From: Fervidobacterium pennivorans
GTDB lineage: Bacteria > Thermotogota > Thermotogae > Thermotogales > Fervidobacteriaceae
Direction: 5' to 3'
Length of the DNA: 64,000 nt
Assembly (NCBI RefSeq): GCF_001644665.1
Contig: NZ_CP011393.1
Coordinates: 310,001 to 374,000 of the forward strand
In this document: positions 10,712-34,336 of the stretch, piece by piece
How positions within the stretch are numbered: position 1 is the first letter of the stretch
Layout of the letters: every line of letters starts with the position of its first letter
Notes under the pieces: generated by a model
The model's input: the letters and a program-made list of their open reading frames with translations, nothing else
What the model was told of the DNA's origin: nothing
Database searches by the model: none
Program-made: the position numbers and the translations under genes

Positions 10712-11830
10712 TCATTCCATTCTCACCATCACATACCTTTCAAACAACGGATCAATTATTTGGTATTTTCCCCTACCGAACTTTTCGATTATTCCACGCT
10801 CGGTAAGCTTCTTAAGCAAGTTATTTAACGTAGTAGCATTCGGGATTTTATATTTCTGAAGGTTAGCAATACTAAAATAACCATCTGTTTGCTCACTAAT
10901 TAATTTTAGCACATTTTTTAAATATTTGTACTCAAGAGTTTCAATTATTAACTCATACCCATACGATTCCCTTTCACAAAGGCTATCAAAAATAACATCT
11001 ATTTCTTCCTCGCTTATCAGCTCCCCTGCCTTATCCCACAGCTCATAGCACAGAAGTTGGAGAAAATATGGGTGTCCTTTCGTAAGCCTATATATCCTCT
11101 TTGCATCCTCCAATATTATCTTTTTTCCAGTGCTATTAAAGTTTTCAACGATATACTCAATACTTTCATCTTCAGGAAGCGTCTTTCCAATATCTACTCG
11201 CAAAGACGAATGATACAACACCCCTGACTTTTCAAAGAATAACTCTTCAATCATGTGCCTCATCGAACCTGAGAAAACAAACACTACATCTTTTTGCGTC
11301 TGGTAGAAACTTCTCAAACTCTCCGGTAGCTTCTCACTAATAGATTTATAAGCCTGAAACTCATCGAGCACAACAACTAACTTCTTCTTTAAATCTTTTT
11401 GCACACCTTCCAATAGTTCATACATCTGCTCAATGAGTAACTCATCGCTTAAATCGTTATCTATCGAAAACGAAATCCCACCAACATCAAAAGAAAAACT
11501 CACATGCTTTGCAATATGCTTAAGATACCTACCCACAAAGCTCATAGGGTTTTTACCTTTCAGCAACTCGTATGCCTGCTTCATCATCTTTTGCACAAAA
11601 CCTTTCAACGAAAAACAACCAAACAAATCAAGATAGATTACCGGATACCCACCTTCAGCTATGAACTTTTGCAAAAGCCATGTCTTACCAAACCTTCGTG
11701 GACCAACAACCACAACATTGTTCCCACTCTCAACTGCATTGCACAAATAACTATATTCTTCCTTTCTATCAATAAAATTCTCTGGAGTGTACGTCTTGCC
11801 AATCTTAAACGGATTAACAAAACTCCCCAT
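10712..11830 (-). CDS. AAA-type ATPase with C-terminal winged helix, copy 1
   Basis: 372 residues from ATG 11830 (GGAGGTGGTTGT before it). Walker A GPRRFGKT (residues 43-50), Walker B LVVVLDE (~151-157), a sensor-like FVFSGSMRHM (~183) and a C-terminal winged-helix segment (FSIANLQKYKIPNATTLNNL) from about residue 305. This layout matches the archaeal-type ATPase/STAND-related P-loop family that is often duplicated in thermophiles; cellular roles are mostly unknown. It is nearly identical to the gene at 24413-25531, differing mainly in the last few residues. It diverges from the small sigma-like gene at 12054 across a shared 222-base region. A bare IstB-type transposition ATPase is unlikely because of the winged helix and absence of an IS21 transposase. 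Confidence 0.88.
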   Translation of the reverse strand: MGSFVNPFKIGKTYTPENFIDRKEEYSYLCNAVESGNNVVVVGPRRFGKTWLLQKFIAEGGYPVIYLDLFGCFSLKGFVQKMMKQAYELLKGKNPMSFVGRYLKHIAKHVSFSFDVGGISFSIDNDLSDELLIEQMYELLEGVQKDLKKKLVVVLDEFQAYKSISEKLPESLRSFYQTQKDVVFVFSGSMRHMIEELFFEKSGVLYHSSLRVDIGKTLPEDESIEYIVENFNSTGKKIILEDAKRIYRLTKGHPYFLQLLCYELWDKAGELISEEEIDVIFDSLCERESYGYELIIETLEYKYLKNVLKLISEQTDGYFSIANLQKYKIPNATTLNNLLKKLTERGIIEKFGRGKYQIIDPLFERYVMVRME

Positions 11831-11950
11831 ACAACCACCTCCAATTAGTTGTATCCGTCCTTGTGACAAAAAATTTTCCAAAAATAGTGCAAAATTGGTA
11901 GATACATCTAATTGACGAGTGGTTTTATAATTTTGCAACATATCTCCCCC

Positions 11951-12000
11951 TTGACACAGGGGCTTAAATTTTGGTATTATATGTATACATTAGTATACAT
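11951..12000 (+). promoter_or_regulatory. Strong promoter with overlapping 8-4-8 palindromic operator, copy 1
   Basis: -35 TTGACA (11951-11956), 18-base spacer and extended -10 TGGTATTAT (ends 11980), followed at once by the perfect palindrome ATGTATAC-ATTA-GTATACAT (11981-12000), which would cover the transcription start. It drives the sigma-like gene at 12054 (ribosome site AAGGAGG). A palindrome in this place is a classic repressor operator. An identical copy lies at 25650-25699. What binds it is unknown; the winged-helix ATPase encoded divergently is one candidate. Confidence 0.7.
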
Positions 12001-12053
12001 ATCCCCCACTGGTAACCATCCTCAAAAAAACTCTCTGCAAGGAGGTTTTTCCA

Positions 12054-12491
12054 ATGGAACAACAAAACGAGCAAAAGCACGTTCAAAAACAATTTGCGGA
12101 TGGGGCAGCAGAAGAAGAACTCCCGGCAGAAAAATGCTCGGAAGACATCAACCAATGGCACAATAAGGTTCTTAGCTACAAACATCTTGTCCGTCGTTGG
12201 ACTGCTTACTTTTGGGGTATCAACAAAGCCTTCCTTTATTCTTACGAAGACCTTGAACAAACAATCTGGTATATTCTCATGGTAGGCTTACAAGAATTTG
12301 ACGGAAGGGGTGATGAAGAACAATTTCTCAATTGGTACATACGAAACAAGGTTGTATCGATAATGATGTACGGCAAAAAACCCCCAAAATGCACACACTT
12401 GCCATTCACACCCATTCGCTTTGACTACGTCTCTCCTGACGAGTTGGCAGAAGTCAATGAACTATTTTACTCTGATGGAGAAGATGACTAA
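12054..12491 (+). CDS. Small protein resembling sigma-70 region 2 only (intact copy)
   Basis: 145 residues. Residues ~44-105 read like sigma region 2: LVRRWTAYFWG, SYEDLEQTIWYILMVGLQEF (63-82), then DGRGDEEQFLNWYIRNKVVS. This parallels [18 protein letters not shown] and [13 protein letters not shown] of the RpoD at the window end. No region 3 or 4 follows; instead there is a conserved tail KPPKCTHLPFTPIRFDYVS and NELFYSDGEDD. The start ATG follows AAGGAGGTTTTTCC. Three broken copies occur at 25753, 29862 and 34058. Comparison with copy 2 over the second half shows about twenty base changes and one amino-acid change (Gln to Lys), so the protein was under selection. Sigma relationship is inferred from pattern; it could be an anti-sigma-like mimic or a DNA-binding regulator. 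Confidence 0.75.
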   Translation: MEQQNEQKHVQKQFADGAAEEELPAEKCSEDINQWHNKVLSYKHLVRRWTAYFWGINKAFLYSYEDLEQTIWYILMVGLQEFDGRGDEEQFLNWYIRNKVVSIMMYGKKPPKCTHLPFTPIRFDYVSPDELAEVNELFYSDGEDD

Positions 12492-12509
12492 GCAGAAAAT
12501 ACCAAAAAA

Positions 12510-12533
12510 CCGACCGGGGTATCCCTGGTCGGC
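12510..12533 (+). terminator. Intrinsic terminator after the sigma-like gene
   Basis: Stem CCGACC...GGTCGG with inner GGG/CCC pairing, preceded by an A-run and followed by CTATTTTAA, 19 bases after the stop codon. Sister copies have a different stem in the same place (GCCAGG/CCTGGC). Confidence 0.65.
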
Positions 12534-12540
12534 TATTTTA

Positions 12541-12748
12541 ATTCAGGCATGGAACTGGTCATTTACAACATTGTTGGATGAACACCTTCCAAAAAGTACA
12601 GTTGCTTTTCTCTTAGGTGTTTATGAGCATAGTGTTCAAACTTGGATCAAAAACTTTCTAATTTCTGGCATTGTTGAACATAAGAAAGGTAGACCAAAGA
12701 AACATAATACCTCTTCTCGACGTCCTTTTATCAAGAGCCAATATTCAT
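12541..12748 (+). pseudogene. Fragment of a transposase N-terminal helix-turn-helix
   Basis: In the frame starting at 12541 the translation gives HLPKSTVAFLLGVYEHSVQT, then WIKNFLISGIVEHKKGRPKK. This is the HTH plus Gly-Arg-Pro-Lys-Lys linker typical of transposase N-termini. There is no start of its own and the frame runs into the TnpB debris at 12749, so only a 60-70 codon fragment survives. IS family not determinable. Confidence 0.5.
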
Positions 12749-13079
12749 TTGACACTCCCAATTCCCTAAAGGGGGTGGGATTCTTAGCTGCTCATTTAGG
12801 CTGCCTTCCATGGAGCGTTTTTAACTCCATGGCCACAGAGGTGTGGTTTAAACCTCACTCCTCTGACGGGTGCCAATCCCGCTACTACTTGGAATTTTTT
12901 TCCAAGATACCTTTGCAAAATGTTTATCGCGCCTACTCCGTCCCTGTGATATCTAAATCCGCAACTCTTGCATTCATAGTTCCGACCATCTGCATGATTC
13001 TTGTCGCCACATACTGGGCAGATCGGGCTCGTATATTCTTCTGGGACAAGTTTCACTTCACTCCCCAGTACCTGTGCTT
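12749..13079 (-). mobile_element. IS200/IS605-type remnant: TnpB C-terminus and right end
   Basis: The minus strand encodes KLVPEEYTSPICPVCGDKNH, then YECKSCGFRYHRDGVGAINI, the C-terminal zinc ribbon (CPxCG...CxxC) and final RuvC Asp segment of TnpB, ending at 12796. Downstream is the usual right-end hairpin region (CCCACCCCCTTTAGGG) finishing in a GTGTCAA-type terminus at 12749. The N-terminal three quarters of TnpB and the left end are gone, cut by the 340-bp element that begins at 13080. In intact elements this 3' region also encodes the omega RNA, so the guide-proximal scaffold may persist here without an effector. Confidence 0.82.
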
Positions 13080-13419
13080 GATAATGTTAACTAAAAGTAT
13101 TGAAACTTTCCAAAAACCGCATTATCCTTTAAAGAGGGGACACCCCTCAACCAACTCTTGACAAAAGCAGGTCCCCCAAGATGAATAACTCAATGCTTTC
13201 TTGGCCAAGCAGTATCATTTGGTAAAAACATGTGTGAATCCAAGTTTTCATTGCTGAAAGACTTTTTCCGACTCAAGCGAGGACTGAAGAATAAGAAGAA
13301 TTTAGCGAGACATATTCGAGGTTTTTGTGTAGTGAAGAATCTTTGGAAAACGCACAATGGTAATATCAATCTCATTCTTTCACACTTACACTCTTTCATC
13401 ACTATAAGTTAACACTATC
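13080..13419 (+). mobile_element. 340-bp non-autonomous derivative of the zinc-ribbon IS, copy A
   Basis: Left end GATAATGTTAACTAAAAGTA and right end (read inward) GATAGTGTTAACTTATAGTG form imperfect terminal inverted repeats matching the full IS at 17932. Internally it keeps the first few transposase codons and the last ~60 (CESKFSLLKDFFRLKRGLKN to the stop), with the middle deleted. A copy of the same length, identical wherever I compared it, lies at 39181-39520. The matching length and deletion joint show that the shortened form itself moved. It inserted into the TnpB remnant. Confidence 0.88.
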
Positions 13420-13692: not shown

Positions 13693-14115
13693 CTACTTTA
13701 GAAAAACGGCTGCTTCAAATATTTTCACGCCTAATCTTGCAAAATGTTTCTTGTCAAAAGTTATTACTCCATCTGCATCTGAGCTTAGAGCATGTTGCGC
13801 AAGGTATGCGTCAATAAAATCCACGTTCCTTGACTTGTAGCCCTCAAGAGCCAAGAGCACGTTGTCCCTTTCCTCACATTCTATACCTCTTGATGACACA
13901 AATACCGACAAAGTATCTGCGATTTGGGATTTTGCAATTTCATAAAACGATTCTAATACCCATACAACCTCAGCAATGGTTATCACAGATACTAATAGTG
14001 CAATTTCTCCCTTATCCGCCATATCCATTACATGCTTTGCTTTTGGTGACAATTCATCGTTATCGTTGAGCAAGTATCTTAGGATGATGTTTGCATCAAT
14101 CCAGTATTTTTTCAT
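13693..14115 (-). CDS. vapC: PIN-domain toxin of a VapBC pair
   Basis: 140 residues. The PIN-fold acidic residues are visible: Asp in YWIDANIILRYLL (residue 7), Glu in TIAEVVWVLE (~50), Asp in NVDFIDAYLAQHA (~102) and Asp in DGVITFDKKHFARL (~120). VapC toxins are Mg-dependent RNases that cleave tRNA or rRNA loops when freed from VapB. Its ATG overlaps the stop of vapB (ATGA), the usual coupling. All catalytic positions look intact, so the toxin could be active. The 270 bases downstream to the 340-bp element hold nothing recognisable. Confidence 0.92.
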   Translation of the reverse strand: MKKYWIDANIILRYLLNDNDELSPKAKHVMDMADKGEIALLVSVITIAEVVWVLESFYEIAKSQIADTLSVFVSSRGIECEERDNVLLALEGYKSRNVDFIDAYLAQHALSSDADGVITFDKKHFARLGVKIFEAAVFLK

Positions 14116-14393
14116 CTCTTCATCCTCTCACTTTCCCTCTTAGCCGTCCACATCTTTTTGGTGTTCTCTGTCTCATCTTCCAAACTTGAAAACTTCACAC
14201 CTGATTTTAAAGAGCCGTACAACTCAGAAAGTCTTTTCCTTTTCACTATTTTCATCAGAATAGTTCCATCATCAAGCATACGGAAGATGACCAAATCTCC
14301 CGTCTGGGCACCTATTGCCTTTCGTATTTTTGCTGGAATCTGCACCTGACCTCTACTTGAAATAATAGCGGAAGACTGTACAATTTCATGCAT
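14112..14393 (-). CDS. vapB: AbrB/SpoVT-type antitoxin of a VapBC pair
   Basis: About 93 residues from ATG 14393, which lies 8 bases after GGAGG (a GTG three codons earlier is too close). The swapped-hairpin AbrB domain is at residues ~3-50: SSAIISSRGQVQIPAKIRKA then IGAQTGDLVIFRMLDDGTI. The basic C-terminal half would wrap the VapC active site. It probably also represses its own promoter, found just upstream at 14418. It is four bases overlapped with vapC. Confidence 0.9.
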   Translation of the reverse strand: MHEIVQSSAIISSRGQVQIPAKIRKAIGAQTGDLVIFRMLDDGTILMKIVKRKRLSELYGSLKSGVKFSSLEDETENTKKMWTAKRESERMKR

Positions 14394-14417
14394 TACTATC
14401 ACCTCCTGGATAATTAT

Positions 14418-24412: not shown

Positions 24413-25531
24413 TTACCAAAGCTTTTTTCCTACATACCTTTCAAACAACGGATCAATTATTTGGTATTTTCCCCTACCGAACTTTTCGATTATTCCACGC
24501 TCGGTAAGCTTCTTAAGCAAGTTATTTAACGTAGTAGCATTCGGGATTTTATATTTCTGAAGGTTAGCAATACTAAAATAACCATCTGTTTGCTCACTAA
24601 TTAATTTTAGCACATTTTTTAAATATTTGTACTCAAGAGTTTCAATTATTAACTCATACCCATACGATTCCCTTTCACAAAGGCTATCAAAAATAACATC
24701 TATTTCTTCCTCGCTTATCAGCTCCCCTGCCTTATCCCACAGCTCATAGCACAGAAGTTGGAGAAAATATGGGTGTCCTTTCGTAAGCCTATATATCCTC
24801 TTTGCATCCTCCAATATTATCTTTTTTCCAGTGCTATTAAAGTTTTCAACGATATACTCAATACTTTCATCTTCAGGAAGCGTCTTTCCAATATCTACTC
24901 GCAAACACGAATGATACAAAACCCCTGACTCTTCAAAGAATAACTCTTCAATCATGTGCCTCATCGAACCTGAGAAAACAAACACTACATCTTTTTGCGT
25001 CTGGTAGAAACTTCTCAAACTCTCCGGTAGCTTCTCACTAATAGATTTATAAGCCTGAAACTCATCGAGCACAACAACTAACTTCTTCTTTAAATCTTTT
25101 TGCACACCTTCCAATAGTTCATACATCTGCTCAATGAGTAACTCATCGCTTAAATCGTTATCTATCGAAAACGAAATCCCACCAACATCAAAAGAAAAAC
25201 TCACATGCTTTGCAATATGCTTAAGATACCTACCCACAAAGCTCATAGGGTTTTTACCTTTCAGCAACTCGTATGCCTGCTTCATCATCTTTTGCACAAA
25301 ACCTTTCAACGAAAAACAACCAAACAAATCAAGATAGATTACCGGATACCCACCTTCAGCTATGAACTTTTGCAAAAGCCATGTCTTACCAAACCTTCGT
25401 GGACCAACAACCACAACATTGTTCCCACTCTCAACTGCATTGCACAAATAACTATATTCTTCCTTTCTATCAATAAAATTCTCTGGAGTGTACGTCTTGC
25501 CAATCTTAAACGGATTAACAAAACTCCCCAT
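24413..25531 (-). CDS. AAA-type ATPase with C-terminal winged helix, copy 2
   Basis: Near-duplicate of the gene at 10712-11830 with the same start context (ATG 25531 after GGAGGTGGTTGT), the same Walker A GPRRFGKT and Walker B LVVVLDE. Differences seen: Lys to Glu and Ser to Cys in the FFEESGVLYHSCLRVD stretch, and the last residues (RYVGKKLW instead of RYVMVRME), where the two copies lose homology at 10733/24434. Near-identity continues through the intergenic region into the first half of the sigma-like gene. A recent duplication or gene conversion of about 1.45 kb is implied. Confidence 0.88.
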   Translation of the reverse strand: MGSFVNPFKIGKTYTPENFIDRKEEYSYLCNAVESGNNVVVVGPRRFGKTWLLQKFIAEGGYPVIYLDLFGCFSLKGFVQKMMKQAYELLKGKNPMSFVGRYLKHIAKHVSFSFDVGGISFSIDNDLSDELLIEQMYELLEGVQKDLKKKLVVVLDEFQAYKSISEKLPESLRSFYQTQKDVVFVFSGSMRHMIEELFFEESGVLYHSCLRVDIGKTLPEDESIEYIVENFNSTGKKIILEDAKRIYRLTKGHPYFLQLLCYELWDKAGELISEEEIDVIFDSLCERESYGYELIIETLEYKYLKNVLKLISEQTDGYFSIANLQKYKIPNATTLNNLLKKLTERGIIEKFGRGKYQIIDPLFERYVGKKLW

Positions 25532-25649
25532 ACAACCACCTCCAATTAGTTGTATCCATCCTTGTGACAAAAAATTTTCCAAAAATAGTGCAAAATTGGT
25601 AGATACATCTAATTGACGGGTGGTTTTATAATTTTGCAACATATCCCCC

Positions 25650-25699
25650 TTGACACAGGGGCTTAAATTTTGGTATTATATGTATACATTAGTATACAT
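25650..25699 (+). promoter_or_regulatory. Promoter with palindromic operator, copy 2
   Basis: TTGACA (25650-25655), 18-base spacer, TATTAT (25674-25679) and the 8-4-8 palindrome ATGTATAC-ATTA-GTATACAT at 25680-25699. Identical to the copy at 11951-12000. It drives the frameshifted sigma-like copy at 25753. Confidence 0.7.
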
Positions 25700-25752
25700 A
25701 TCCCCCACTGGTAACCATCCTCAAAAAAACTCTCTGCAAGGAGGTTTTTCCA

Positions 25753-26189
25753 ATGGAACAACAAAACGAACAAAAGCACGTTCAAAAACAATTTGCGGAT
25801 GGGGCAGCAGAAGAAAAACTCCCGGCAGAAAAATGCTCGGAAGACATCAACCAATGGCACAATAAAGTTCTTAGCTACAAACATCTTGTGCGTAGATGGA
25901 CTGCTTACTTTTGGGGTATCAACAAAGCATTCCTCTATTCGTACGAAGACCTCGAACAGACTATTTGGTATATTCTAATGGTAGGCCTCAAAGAATTCGA
26001 CGGAAGGGGAGATGAAGAGCAGTTTTTGAATTGGTACATAAGAAACAAATAGTATCTATAATGATGTACGGCAAAAAGCCACCCAAATGTACGCACTTAC
26101 CGTTTACACCCATTCGCTTCGACTATGTTTCACCGGATGAAATGGCTGAAGTTAATGAACTATTCTATTCAGATGGTGAGGATGATTGA
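25753..26189 (+). pseudogene. Sigma-region-2-like gene, copy 2, one-base frameshift
   Basis: The frame from ATG 25753 matches copy 1 for 99 codons and stops at 26050 because one base is missing after AACAA (AACAAATAG in place of AACAAGGTTG). Past that point the other frame continues VSIMMYGKKPPKCTHLPFTP and NELFYSDGEDD to a stop at 26189, so the rest is intact. The 99-residue product would keep nearly all of the region-2-like part and lose the conserved tail. Either a recent inactivation or a single-base sequencing error. Confidence 0.78.
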
Positions 26190-26274: not shown

Positions 26275-27240
26275 TCATTCTATTGTACAATCACTCAAAA
26301 GTTGTGGATACACCAACCACCTACCCTCTGGCTTTATCGCAATTAGTTGCTTACGTTCTATCATCTTTCTCACTGCATCCGTACTCTTTCCAATCTGATT
26401 TGCAAATTCGTCGACTTTAACCAATTTATCCCTATTAGCAGAACAAATTTCCCTATCAAAAGCCTCGATTAAACTGTACGCTATCATTCTTGCAAGTGGT
26501 TTTGTATCCTCCGTTGAGAACATTGCATCTATCTTCTCTGGCGTTTGATCGTTTACTGACTCTCGGAACAACTTTCTAATCCCTTTTTCCGCACTTTCCA
26601 ACGCCTTAATATATTCCATACGCTCACTGTCATCCATACCTTTAACTACTATATTCAAATATCCATAGTAGATCAAAATAGTATTCGTCAAAATTCTCCC
26701 TATCCTGCCGTTACCATCCTCGAAAGGATGGATGCTTTCAAACAACACATGAGTTCTTGCGGTAGCTTCGTGAACCGGGTGTTTTTGATAGGCATATTCT
26801 ACATATCTGATCCACAACTTAACCCAGTCTGCAATATCGTATTCTGGTGGTTTAATTTTCGCACCGGTTATCTTTATTGGTCCATATCTAAAATTCCCAA
26901 GTCGGCTTTCATTCTGGATTAAACCATCAAACAACATTCTGTGGCATGTTCTCACTAAAGCAACAGTCAACAACTTTTCCTGCGTCTTGGAATACTCAAA
27001 AGCTAGATTGTAGAAAAATCTTGCCGTTTTAAAATAATTCACCACTTCACTTGCCGACTTGTAGTTTGTATTCAAAGCTCTGTCTAATTCATCCTCATCC
27101 ACAAAAATGCCCTCAATCATCAGGGAATTCCTTGTTTCTTCCTTAAGCATATATAACCATTCTTTATTTGTTATTTCAACAAAGATAGGTTTAAAAACTC
27201 TTCTTCTGCACTCTACTAGCCTTGTTAACATGTTATTCAT
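26275..27240 (-). CDS. Fic family AMP-transferase with N-terminal inhibitory motif
   Basis: 321 residues from ATG 27240 (GGAGGTTACAAT before it). The complete Fic motif HPFEDGNGRIGR is at 171-182. An (S/T)xxxE(G/N) inhibitory motif, SLMIEG at 39-44, lies ahead of the Fic core, which marks a class II self-inhibited Fic protein. The C-terminus (VDEFANQIGKSTDAVRKMIE) looks like a winged helix. Such proteins transfer AMP from ATP to Ser/Thr/Tyr of targets; many Fic-wHTH proteins seem to regulate their own transcription. It is convergent with the sigma-like copy 2. The similar arrangement recurs at 30411, where the catalytic His is lost. Confidence 0.92.
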   Translation of the reverse strand: MNNMLTRLVECRRRVFKPIFVEITNKEWLYMLKEETRNSLMIEGIFVDEDELDRALNTNYKSASEVVNYFKTARFFYNLAFEYSKTQEKLLTVALVRTCHRMLFDGLIQNESRLGNFRYGPIKITGAKIKPPEYDIADWVKLWIRYVEYAYQKHPVHEATARTHVLFESIHPFEDGNGRIGRILTNTILIYYGYLNIVVKGMDDSERMEYIKALESAEKGIRKLFRESVNDQTPEKIDAMFSTEDTKPLARMIAYSLIEAFDREICSANRDKLVKVDEFANQIGKSTDAVRKMIERKQLIAIKPEGRWLVYPQLLSDCTIE

Positions 27241-27668
27241 ATTGTAACCTCCGTATTTTGTCCACTTTTTTCGAGAGGCTGTATACATCTGAACCAAAGT
27301 TTCTTTATCTAAATAATTTTCGAACAGCATCCCTTTGTCCTGTTTGAAGTTAAAAAGCGATATCTGGACAAGTAGTTACACCTGTGAAATTTGTTAATAA
27401 CTTTAGTGTAATACGAAAAGACAGAACATTGTTCAATCACAGCTATCTTTATTTTATCACAAAGTCGTACTCACGATTAGCAAGAGCCTTTGAAAATGTA
27501 CTTTATTTTCTGTCGCTTACAATTTATGTGTTTTTTTGCAAAGTTCTTGGCCTCATCTGTCGCTTTAATCTCACCACACACAACTACTGCTTTGACTATT
27601 TCTTCTCACTTTTCCAGTTCACATCTAACTTAGTGATGTCTCAAGACTGTTTTTAAGTATAAAACAAA
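27241..27668. other. Non-coding gap upstream of fic
   Basis: No frame here resembles a protein. An upstream extension of the fic frame (to 27330) lacks a ribosome site and is probably 5' untranslated. The rest is A/T-rich and shows no repeat or strong hairpin. Confidence 0.4.
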
Positions 27669-29836: not shown

Positions 29837-29861
29837 AAATGTATAATTTAACGTAAGAAGA

Positions 29862-30041
29862 GGAAAAGAACAGTTTTTGAATTGGTACATCAGAAACAAA
29901 GCTGTATCTATAATGATGTACGGCAAAAAGCCTCCAAAATGCACACACCTGCCGTTCATATTCATTCGCTTCGACTACGTTTCTCCAGACGAGCTTGCAG
30001 AACCAAATGAACTATTCTACTCCGATGGCGAGGATGATTGA
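29862..30041 (+). pseudogene. Sigma-region-2-like gene, copy 3 (3' half only)
   Basis: Reads EQFLNWYIRNKAVSIMMYGK, KPPKCTHLPF and VSPDELAEPNELFYSDGEDD to a stop at 30041, matching residues ~90-145 of copy 1. No start codon or region-2 front remains; it abuts the ATPase stop. Substitutions relative to the other copies are still mostly silent, so decay or truncation is recent. Confidence 0.8.
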
Positions 30042-30410: not shown

Positions 30411-31577
30411 CTATTTCTTGTTCTTCTTTTTTGCCCCATCATTTTGCTTGGATTCTTTCTCAACGGTTTTCATCCTACCATAGCCAAGAAATTCCTCGAG
30501 TGATTTTGGTGCAATTTCAGGATACACATACCATTCTCCGTCTACCTTTTTGCGAATCAGCTTTCTACTTCGCACCAACCGCTGAACTTCAGAAAGCTTC
30601 TTCCCACTCTGCTTAACAAACTCGCTCAATGGAACAAGCTTGTCCTTCAGATAGTTATTTAACAAAATATCATACGAATCAGCCAAACCGTACATAATGC
30701 TTTTTATTAAGTCGCTACTTCTTCGCATTTGGTATAGAATTGCCAACTGCATTGGAAGTGTTTGGTCTGATACAAACTGTTCGTGGAATACCCTTGCCCC
30801 TCTCTCAAGTCCTCTGAAGTACATCTTCTTTTCCTCTTCTTCTGATGAAATAATTGCATTCCCGTACTTAGCCATCAAAAGAAGCATGTTCACGATAATC
30901 CGACCAACTCGACCATTTCCGTACTCGAAAGGTAGGATGCTCATGAACAGCGAATGGGAAAACTCTACGTTGTCCAATGTATAATTCCATCTTTGCGTAA
31001 ACAAAAGCCTCGTAAATTCAGACCAAATTTTCATAAACTCTTCGATATTATCCTTTGGGGTGAGTTCTTTCAGCAAAGATGGCACACCGGCATCTTCGAT
31101 ACTTGATGTCTTTCTATACTCTCCGCTCTTCTCCTTCCCAGGGATACCATAGAACAGACTTCTGTGAATCAACCTTGGCAGTTTTGGAAGTAAAAACAAC
31201 ACATTTTCGCGCATCTCCAGTGCCATACCATACATTGCCAGAGCAACTTCGTAGTACCTTATCACTTCCGCCCAGCTTGGTTTTACCTTATCCAACGAAT
31301 AACTCAAAACATCCGACAACTTCTTCTCACTAATCTTGCCTTTCAACACTTTCTCAATTATCTCTTCTGAATACTCTAACCTCTTAGCAGCGATTTCTTT
31401 AACTGCATCCATTTCTTCAAATGGCACTACAACACCATCAAGCGCACACGAATGCCAAGCCTCTTCCCAAAGCAATTGACCTTCGATATGCTCTAAGGTT
31501 AAATCATCAACAAAATCCATCAAAACGTCATCACGCCAGTCAACAATCAAATACAATTTGGAAAAATCTTGCGCCAT
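30411..31577 (-). CDS. Fic-like protein with catalytic His replaced by Leu
   Basis: 388 residues from ATG 31577 (GAGGTGAAGAGGT before it). The Fic loop reads LPFEYGNGRVGR at 215-226, so the catalytic His of HPFxxGNGR is Leu while the anion-binding GNGRxGR is kept. The inhibitory-type motif is SCALDG at 43-48, with Asp replacing the usual Glu. A C-terminal winged-helix-like part (PLSEFVKQSGKKLSEVQRLV) and a Lys-rich tail follow. It is a distant paralogue of the Fic at 26275 with the same order of parts. It cannot AMPylate by the known mechanism; it may bind nucleotide as a regulator, or use another chemistry. Confidence 0.86.
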   Translation of the reverse strand: MAQDFSKLYLIVDWRDDVLMDFVDDLTLEHIEGQLLWEEAWHSCALDGVVVPFEEMDAVKEIAAKRLEYSEEIIEKVLKGKISEKKLSDVLSYSLDKVKPSWAEVIRYYEVALAMYGMALEMRENVLFLLPKLPRLIHRSLFYGIPGKEKSGEYRKTSSIEDAGVPSLLKELTPKDNIEEFMKIWSEFTRLLFTQRWNYTLDNVEFSHSLFMSILPFEYGNGRVGRIIVNMLLLMAKYGNAIISSEEEEKKMYFRGLERGARVFHEQFVSDQTLPMQLAILYQMRRSSDLIKSIMYGLADSYDILLNNYLKDKLVPLSEFVKQSGKKLSEVQRLVRSRKLIRKKVDGEWYVYPEIAPKSLEEFLGYGRMKTVEKESKQNDGAKKKNKK

Positions 31578-34057: not shown

Positions 34058-34336
34058 TAAGGGGGTCAGCAAAGCATTCCGTATTTGTGTGAAAACCTCG
34101 AGCAAACCATTTGATATATCCTTATGGTGGGAGTGCAAGAATCCGACGGAAGCGGAGACGAGGCAGAATTTCTGAATTGGTACATGAGCAACAAAGTTGT
34201 GTCAATCATAACGTACAGCAAAATGCCACCAAAGTGCACGCATCTGCCATTCACACCCATCCGCTTTGATTACGTTTCACTTGATGAAATGGCTGAAGTT
34301 AATGAATTATTTTATTCCGATGGAGAGAACGATTGA
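34058..34336 (+). pseudogene. Sigma-region-2-like gene, copy 4 (decayed)
   Basis: Reads ENLEQTI, then an in-frame TGA where the other copies have Trp, then YILMVGVQESDGSGDEAEFL and KMPPKCTHLPFTPIRFDYVS to NELFYSDGEND and a stop at 34336. The front is frameshifted or missing. This is the most diverged copy; changes such as Tyr-Gly to Tyr-Ser suggest older decay. No ATPase gene accompanies it. Confidence 0.8.

Follow-up and report, generated by a model that had tools for sequence, protein, structure and literature searches.

The gene at the centre of this analysis, referred to as D, lies at positions 12054-12491 (+) of the window, i.e. of the whole stretch of 64,000 nucleotides that was analysed (G000:C1:310001-374000), which belongs to the complete 2.06 Mb genome of Fervidobacterium pennivorans. 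D encodes a protein of 145 amino acids. It is preceded by the Shine-Dalgarno sequence AGGAGG at 12040-12045 (+) and followed at 12510-12539 (+) by a probable terminator, recognized by eye and unscored, consisting of the hairpin CCGACCGGGG..CCCTGGTCGG and a T-rich run. The initial annotation had described the product as a sigma region 2 that lacks region 4. Sigma factors dock on the beta' clamp helices with region 2.2 and use regions 2.3/2.4 to read and melt the -10 element.

Compared on its own with Pfam Sigma70_r2 (PF04542), the D protein reaches 18.1 bits (E=0.0023), which is below the 24-bit cut-off, and phmmer searches with the single protein against PDB, PHROGs and NCBIfam were uninformative, so that a family profile was required. 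Region 2 is reached via the homologues and this profile. PF04542 is matched by 24 of the 28 aligned homologues with a best E of 8e-9, one of them (L024) exceeding the cut-off, and the profile of the family alignment finds sigma28/FliA in the PDB with an E of 7e-6. In the alignment to FliA the D-L-x-Q motif of region 2.2 is in register, and the 'KPPKC' part of D faces the 'DWAPRS' end of FliA region 2. The AlphaFold2 model of D shows a confident helical core (pLDDT about 85-97, residues 31-110). Nearly all of the 50 rows returned by VIA-align are sigma region 2, the best being sigma28 with a Z of 8.7 over 82 residues, and the structure alignment of the D model with FliA of P. aeruginosa gives an rmsd of 2.2 over 76 residues. 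As a Z of 8.7 is modest and not decisive for a helical bundle, we counted the fold jointly with the profile result; from both together the assignment of D to sigma region 2 is safe, and the annotated reading frame with its region 2 stands.

Across the family S63, D66, L67, Q69, T70, Y73, K99, P111 and F118 are invariant. Among these, D66, L67 and Q69 are unchanged in the 28 homologues and align with the same residues in the D-L-x-Q face of FliA region 2.2. The conserved 'KPPKC..PF' tail emphasized in the initial annotation is retained in the Fervidobacterium/Thermosipho branch. The aromatic residues that melt the -10 element in sigma-A are kept only in part; D has W94/Y95, which are substituted in other members.

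Four copies of the gene had been listed in the window, starting at 12054, 25753, 29862 and 34058. We found one intact gene and three remains. The second copy at 25753-26185 (+) is an approximately 97% identical duplicate that is frameshifted by a 1-bp deletion near 26048. The other two are 5'-truncated fragments recognized by sequence comparison, which have lost their 5' half: 29845-30037 (+) is 82% identical to D, and 34066-34326 (+) is 77% identical and carries an indel. The duplication comprises 1757 bp (24432-26185 versus 10731-12487, 96.7% identical) and includes the promoter and the divergent gene next to D, an ATPase_2-type AAA ATPase at 10712-11941 (-) (PF01637, E 1.7e-13) whose true start is probably near 11830. 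The window therefore holds two nearly identical AAA ATPases, at 10712-11941 and 24413-25642 (-). Members of this ATPase family also neighbour D, or lie close to it, in several Fervidobacterium loci and genomes; we do not claim them as part of the mechanism proposed below. Fragments of D also adjoin the D gene in two related genomes (G068 and G060), indicating that duplication and decay recur in the polysaccharide region. The multiple copies are thus due to local duplication and decay and not to expansion of the family.

An open reading frame at 12421-13161 (+) was considered as a split second half or partner of D and rejected: in a different frame it overlaps both the 3' end of D and the terminator, G070 alone shares it, and its helix-turn-helix match is at chance level. 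Further neighbours in the window are a PIN-domain toxin with a MazE/AbrB-type antitoxin adjoining D (13693-14402, -), a C-terminal fragment of a TnpB/Cas12f-like nuclease comprising only the zinc-ribbon end (12796-13056, -; probably the remains of an IS200/IS605-type element) and two Fic-domain proteins beside the dead copies of D (26275-27330 and 30411-31577, -). In G068 and G067, too, relatives of the Fic proteins neighbour D or fragments of it. An Rfam search of window positions 10000-35000 gave no match.

Distribution, descent and domain architecture

Relatives of D were detected by profile in 58 of 103 Thermotogota genomes, representing 23 of 38 genera. A search of genome contigs yielded no hits with the D protein alone and eight records with the family alignment, all of them from Thermotogota. 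No relative was found by tblastn against 72,556 plasmids and 50,697 phages. In a maximum-likelihood tree of 52 members the branching mostly follows the taxonomic families, with family f2 splitting into two groups. Judged from these sequences, D is an old, phylum-wide gene of the Thermotogota that has been inherited vertically. The suggestion that it might be a stripped sigma factor of a mobile element is contradicted by its absence from the plasmids and phages searched, by the vertical tree and by the syntenic operon in which it is found.

The lack of region 4 was confirmed. In 44 of the 52 members the tail following region 2 does not exceed 33 amino acids and leaves no room for region 4. The remaining eight (L024, L034, L109 and L142-L146), from the Mesoaciditoga-like family f8 and from family f11, carry a tail of 45-55 residues with a C-terminal helix-turn-helix. 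AlphaFold models of these two-domain members show, at moderate confidence, the three helices of region 2, a loose linker and a three-helix tail, which is the layout of ECF sigma factors, and Foldseek ranked ECF sigmas at the top with weak scores. Since the two-domain form is the common form of a sigma factor, loss of region 4 in the region-2-only members is a simpler reading than its gain in f8 and f11.

A shared upstream box and a putative second control layer

Outside Fervidobacterium and its sister genus D is usually the last of four genes in an operon DUF1659-DUF2922-ORF C-D. ORF A of this operon corresponds to PF07872 (DUF1659) and ORF B to PF11148 (DUF2922); ORF C belongs to no Pfam family. 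Its weak resemblance to holins (holin_LLH, E 0.044; a PHROG holin, E 0.027) is not significant. Leaving aside the two Fervidobacterium-like genera, DUF2922 is located within 1.5 kb of D on the same strand in 50 of 58 loci. Within these two genera this applies to none of nine loci, and A-B-C is found elsewhere; in the genome studied here it lies at about 51.9-52.5 kb, unlinked to D.

A box consisting of GTAGATAYAT, five bases and TG is found upstream both of D and of the A-B-C operon, to which D is not linked here. At D the box reads GTAGATACATCTAATTG and is located at 11898-11914 (+), where we propose it as a -10-like element read by D itself, forming the first of two promoters; a second copy at 25599-25615 (+), found by pattern search, precedes the broken duplicate. 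Exact matches to GTAGATAYATnnnnnTG occur 21 times in nine Fervidobacterium genomes, compared to three matches of the reversed pattern used as control. All but two of the 21 are upstream of and codirectional with D or its duplicate, the A-B-C operon or the gene for an endolysin-like peptidase (PHROG endolysin, E 1e-13), which is the third type of gene preceded by the box, the three being unlinked; the other two fall inside other reading frames.

The endolysin gene fixes the position of the box within the promoter. The main endolysin gene is present in six species belonging to the genus proper (G067-G071 and G074), and in all of them the start codon comes 27-30 nt after the first base of the box, with the Shine-Dalgarno sequence directly behind the box. 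Transcription must therefore start just behind the box, which can thus be a -10 element and not a -35 element. Second endolysin paralogues in G068 and G070 are without a box. When 24 box sites were aligned, no column between -60 and -1 exceeded 0.6 bits, i.e. there is no -35-like conservation. For ten columns of the box, conservation follows from the way in which the sites were searched; the TTG at +14 to +16 is conserved without having been selected for, with T at +15 in 83% and G at +16 in 92% of the sites.

Related boxes were found beyond Fervidobacterium. In Thermosipho-like genera GTAGATATATTTATATG stands before the whole A-B-C-D operon, and the box of the DUF1659 operon of T. maritima reads TATAAnATATGG; a Thermotoga-specific pattern matched only the two operons from which it had been built. 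In families f2, f3, f8 and f11 the corresponding position is occupied by a related box with the pattern GTA..TATAT..TGG. The region-2-only relatives of f2 and f3 have a further GTATAC half immediately preceding the box, where a second contact is possible. In most species the space between the box and ORF A holds, directly behind the box, a perfect 8-16 bp palindrome (L094-L101, L015, L020, L023-L034, L107-L111 and L142-L161). It is self-complementary in nearly every genus, each genus having its own sequence (TGCCTGCGCAGGCA, GGAAGGCCTTCC, TTGAGCCGGCTCAA, TGGACGTCCA and others), and it is absent from the D and endolysin boxes of Fervidobacterium. The palindrome may be the operator of a dimeric protein, an RNA stem or a feature of the start site.

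The box was also seen in some other settings. In each of two Thermosipho-like genomes the exact 17-mer GTAGATATATTTATATG lies 120-150 nt upstream of two distinct permease genes of the TSUP (TauE/SafE-like) type (L130, L131, L133 and L134). The f2 genome G064 contains a dispersed non-coding repeat with the exact box in 14 copies (L176, L184-L188 and L191-L198). In this repeat CGTATACTATATAATGG is followed by either of two palindromic inserts and then by a common end; the whole resembles a mobile element or small-RNA unit into which the box promoter has been incorporated. At the A-B-C locus of the genome studied here (L119, G000:C1:51000-56500) the box is at G000:C1:53639-53655 (-), and a fragment of an insertion sequence, identical in sequence to the IS end at window positions 13190-13402, separates the box and its palindrome from DUF1659-DUF2922-C, whereas the two are adjacent in congeners. 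The operon has therefore probably lost its box promoter in this genome.

D is additionally preceded by a sigma-A promoter read from the sequence at 11951-11980 (+), consisting of TTGACA (11951-11956) and TATTAT (11975-11980) separated by 18 nt, and similar hexamers precede D in most congeners. The operator-like dyad GTATACATTAGTATAC (11983-11998, +) lies at the expected transcription start. Its pattern matched ten times in 20 genomes of the family, nine times upstream of a D gene or copy and once (G084) upstream of a DUF1659-DUF2922-C-D operon; the reversed control matched once. The dyad GTATACATnnGTATAC is thus nearly exclusive to promoters of the sigma2 gene or its operon. As it is found before D or the operon holding D, the basal level of D is probably under the control of a repressor.

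With respect to its wider surroundings, D in Fervidobacterium is detached from the DUF operon and lies within a polysaccharide cluster. A PF02397 sugar transferase is encoded within 5 kb of D in all seven f10 loci, all six loci of genus g13 (family f3) and 6 of 11 Thermosipho-like loci, and within 50 kb in six of seven Fervidobacterium loci; close linkage was not seen in families f2, f8 and f11. Since no box was found upstream of the polysaccharide genes in the window, the link between D and these genes is positional only. In Thermotoga-like genomes a FlgJ-like glucosaminidase follows directly behind D. Many f9 genomes have DUF2922 and no D, and the 98% complete draft G075 has kept the DUF operon with its box, with no D found. 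Beside D neither a known anti-sigma gene nor a small DNA-binding gene is conserved; the conserved neighbours are DUF1659, DUF2922 and ORF C, and ORF C or one of the DUF proteins could be an unrecognised anti-sigma factor.

Proposed mechanism and alternative explanations

We consider it fairly probable that D is an alternative sigma factor of which region 2 alone has remained, and that it reads a single -10-like box, is autoregulated and drives the DUF operon and the hydrolase. D would bind core RNA polymerase at the beta' clamp helices via the conserved D-L-x-Q face, like region 2.2 elsewhere, and its 2.3/2.4 part would read and melt the box as a contiguous -10/start-site element. Being devoid of region 4 it should need no -35 box, and none is conserved. 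D would first be switched on from the sigma-A promoter with its GTATAC dyad operator and then feed itself through the box in a positive autoregulation; it would further turn on the small DUF proteins, the possibly holin-like ORF C and the peptidoglycan hydrolase. With such targets, a role in the cell envelope or in lysis is most likely. Against this reading stand the genomes that keep DUF genes and have no D (G075 with its box, many of f9), the second endolysin paralogues lacking a box, the partial retention of the aromatic residues and the possible second contact in f2 and f3. The initial annotation had suggested that the protein may hijack or modulate RNA polymerase. Its core, a region-2-only protein, is supported by profile and fold and, indirectly, by the promoter-like box, from which we infer the action of D on the polymerase. 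More tentatively, D may direct the polymerase to the contiguous 17-bp -10/start-site box alone, without a region-4 partner, which would make it the smallest sigma factor in nature, while deep relatives still have a two-domain form; we regard this as quite possible, though short of probable.

The function could alternatively be shared between two subunits, D supplying region 2 and a separate protein recognizing a -35 element, both being needed at box promoters as in SigO-RsoA. RsoA is exactly such a subunit (PMC8103513), and a GTATAC half precedes the box in f2 and f3. As the deep relatives (L024, L034, L109 and L142-L146) still carry the helix-turn-helix on the same chain, a split into two subunits would be a short step. 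However, Sigma70_r4 matches above the cut-off in the genome studied here belong to RpoD, FliA and an ECF-type sigma only, i.e. to parts of complete sigma factors, and the lone small match (61 aa, E 0.003) consists of just a helix-turn-helix without sigma character. Moreover, there is no -35-like conservation in Fervidobacterium, and neither a region-4 partner nor a conserved small DNA-binding gene was found beside D. A diverged partner could escape such a search; overall, we judge a two-subunit factor to be rather unlikely. If D were instead a clamp-binding modulator or anti-factor, the box would be bound by another regulator or sigma factor, such as RpoD with an activator or an ECF sigma. Sigma mimics that do not initiate transcription exist, as exemplified by PhyR (PMC8103513), and G075 and other genomes without D keep the DUF operon. 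Yet the box precedes D itself, its old operon partners and almost nothing else, occupies the -10 position in the endolysin promoter and is unlike the extended -10 element of T. maritima RpoD, TGn plus a sigma70-like hexamer (PMC3636130). We therefore hold a modulator to be improbable.

Two further explanations differ in what D is thought to control. Its main task could be to switch the surrounding polysaccharide cluster, the DUF operon and the lysin being secondary. This would agree with the close linkage to PF02397 in f10, g13 and Thermosipho-like loci and with the looser one in Fervidobacterium, where D lost its link to the DUF operon and remained in the cluster. The absence of the box before any polysaccharide gene of the window and the missing linkage in f2, f8 and f11 speak against it and make it decidedly improbable. 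D could also belong to a domesticated phage or bacteriocin-like lysis module and act as late-gene activator of ORF C and the endolysin, in the manner of TcdR/UviA/Xpf-type factors. The endolysin-like peptidase in the putative regulon, the glucosaminidase behind D in Thermotoga-like genomes and the faint likeness of ORF C to LLH holins (E 0.04 and 0.027) fit this explanation, but D has no relative in phages or plasmids and has descended vertically, no structural phage genes lie beside it and the holin match is not significant, so that the probability of such a module appears low. Finally, the D copy in the window might be a decaying, nonfunctional relic like its three dead neighbours, all the more as an insertion sequence parts the box from the DUF operon in the same genome. 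Against this, D has an intact frame, a Shine-Dalgarno sequence and a promoter and is 99% identical to the intact copy of G070 and 85% identical to that of G068; we regard a relic as very improbable.

The preferred reading, a sigma factor reduced to region 2, relates D to several known groups. With ECF sigmas (group IV) it shares the homology of region 2 and, in its deep relatives with a helix-turn-helix, the sigma2-linker-sigma4 layout, but 44 of the 52 members have no region 4, no known anti-sigma gene is a conserved neighbour and there is no conserved -35 element. FliA/sigma28 (group III) is the best match to D among solved structures by both profile and fold; D differs by the lack of regions 3 and 4, and the genome has a complete FliA-like sigma gene at another locus. 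The group V sigmas TcdR, UviA, BotR and TetR have a divergent region 2 and genes beside holin-like and lysis genes. They differ from D in that they keep region 4 and control toxins or bacteriocins, and the holin match of ORF C is weak here. Closest in architecture is RsoA of B. subtilis, the region-2-only subunit of SigO-RsoA, a small protein which carries only sigma region 2 on its own chain (PMC8103513); the earlier statement that no family of this kind has been described thus has to be corrected. As is proposed for D, SigO-RsoA is an alternative sigma system, and it directs transcription of the operon that encodes it (PMC8103513). However, RsoA needs SigO for region 4 and no such partner was found for D, and SigO-RsoA drives oxalate decarboxylase genes, whereas the targets of D would be the DUF1659/DUF2922 genes and a peptidoglycan hydrolase. 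Since a SigO-like partner was not found, D was not assigned to this system; the likeness is one of architecture.

Most alternative sigma factors are held to need region 4 for finding their promoters. If our reading is true, the existence in nature of a factor made of sigma2 only, with a defined box, would reveal the minimal initiation factor and offer a compact tool for thermophiles. T. maritima has been described as having only four sigma factors, RpoD, RpoE, SigH and FliA, of which RpoD mostly uses an extended -10 element; no motif was found for the alternative ones (PMC3636130). A further, unrecognised sigma factor may therefore exist in the phylum, and one of the D type in T. maritima would be new. 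In the literature searched we found no papers explaining DUF1659 or DUF2922, and the reading of D as their sigma factor gives both a testable role.
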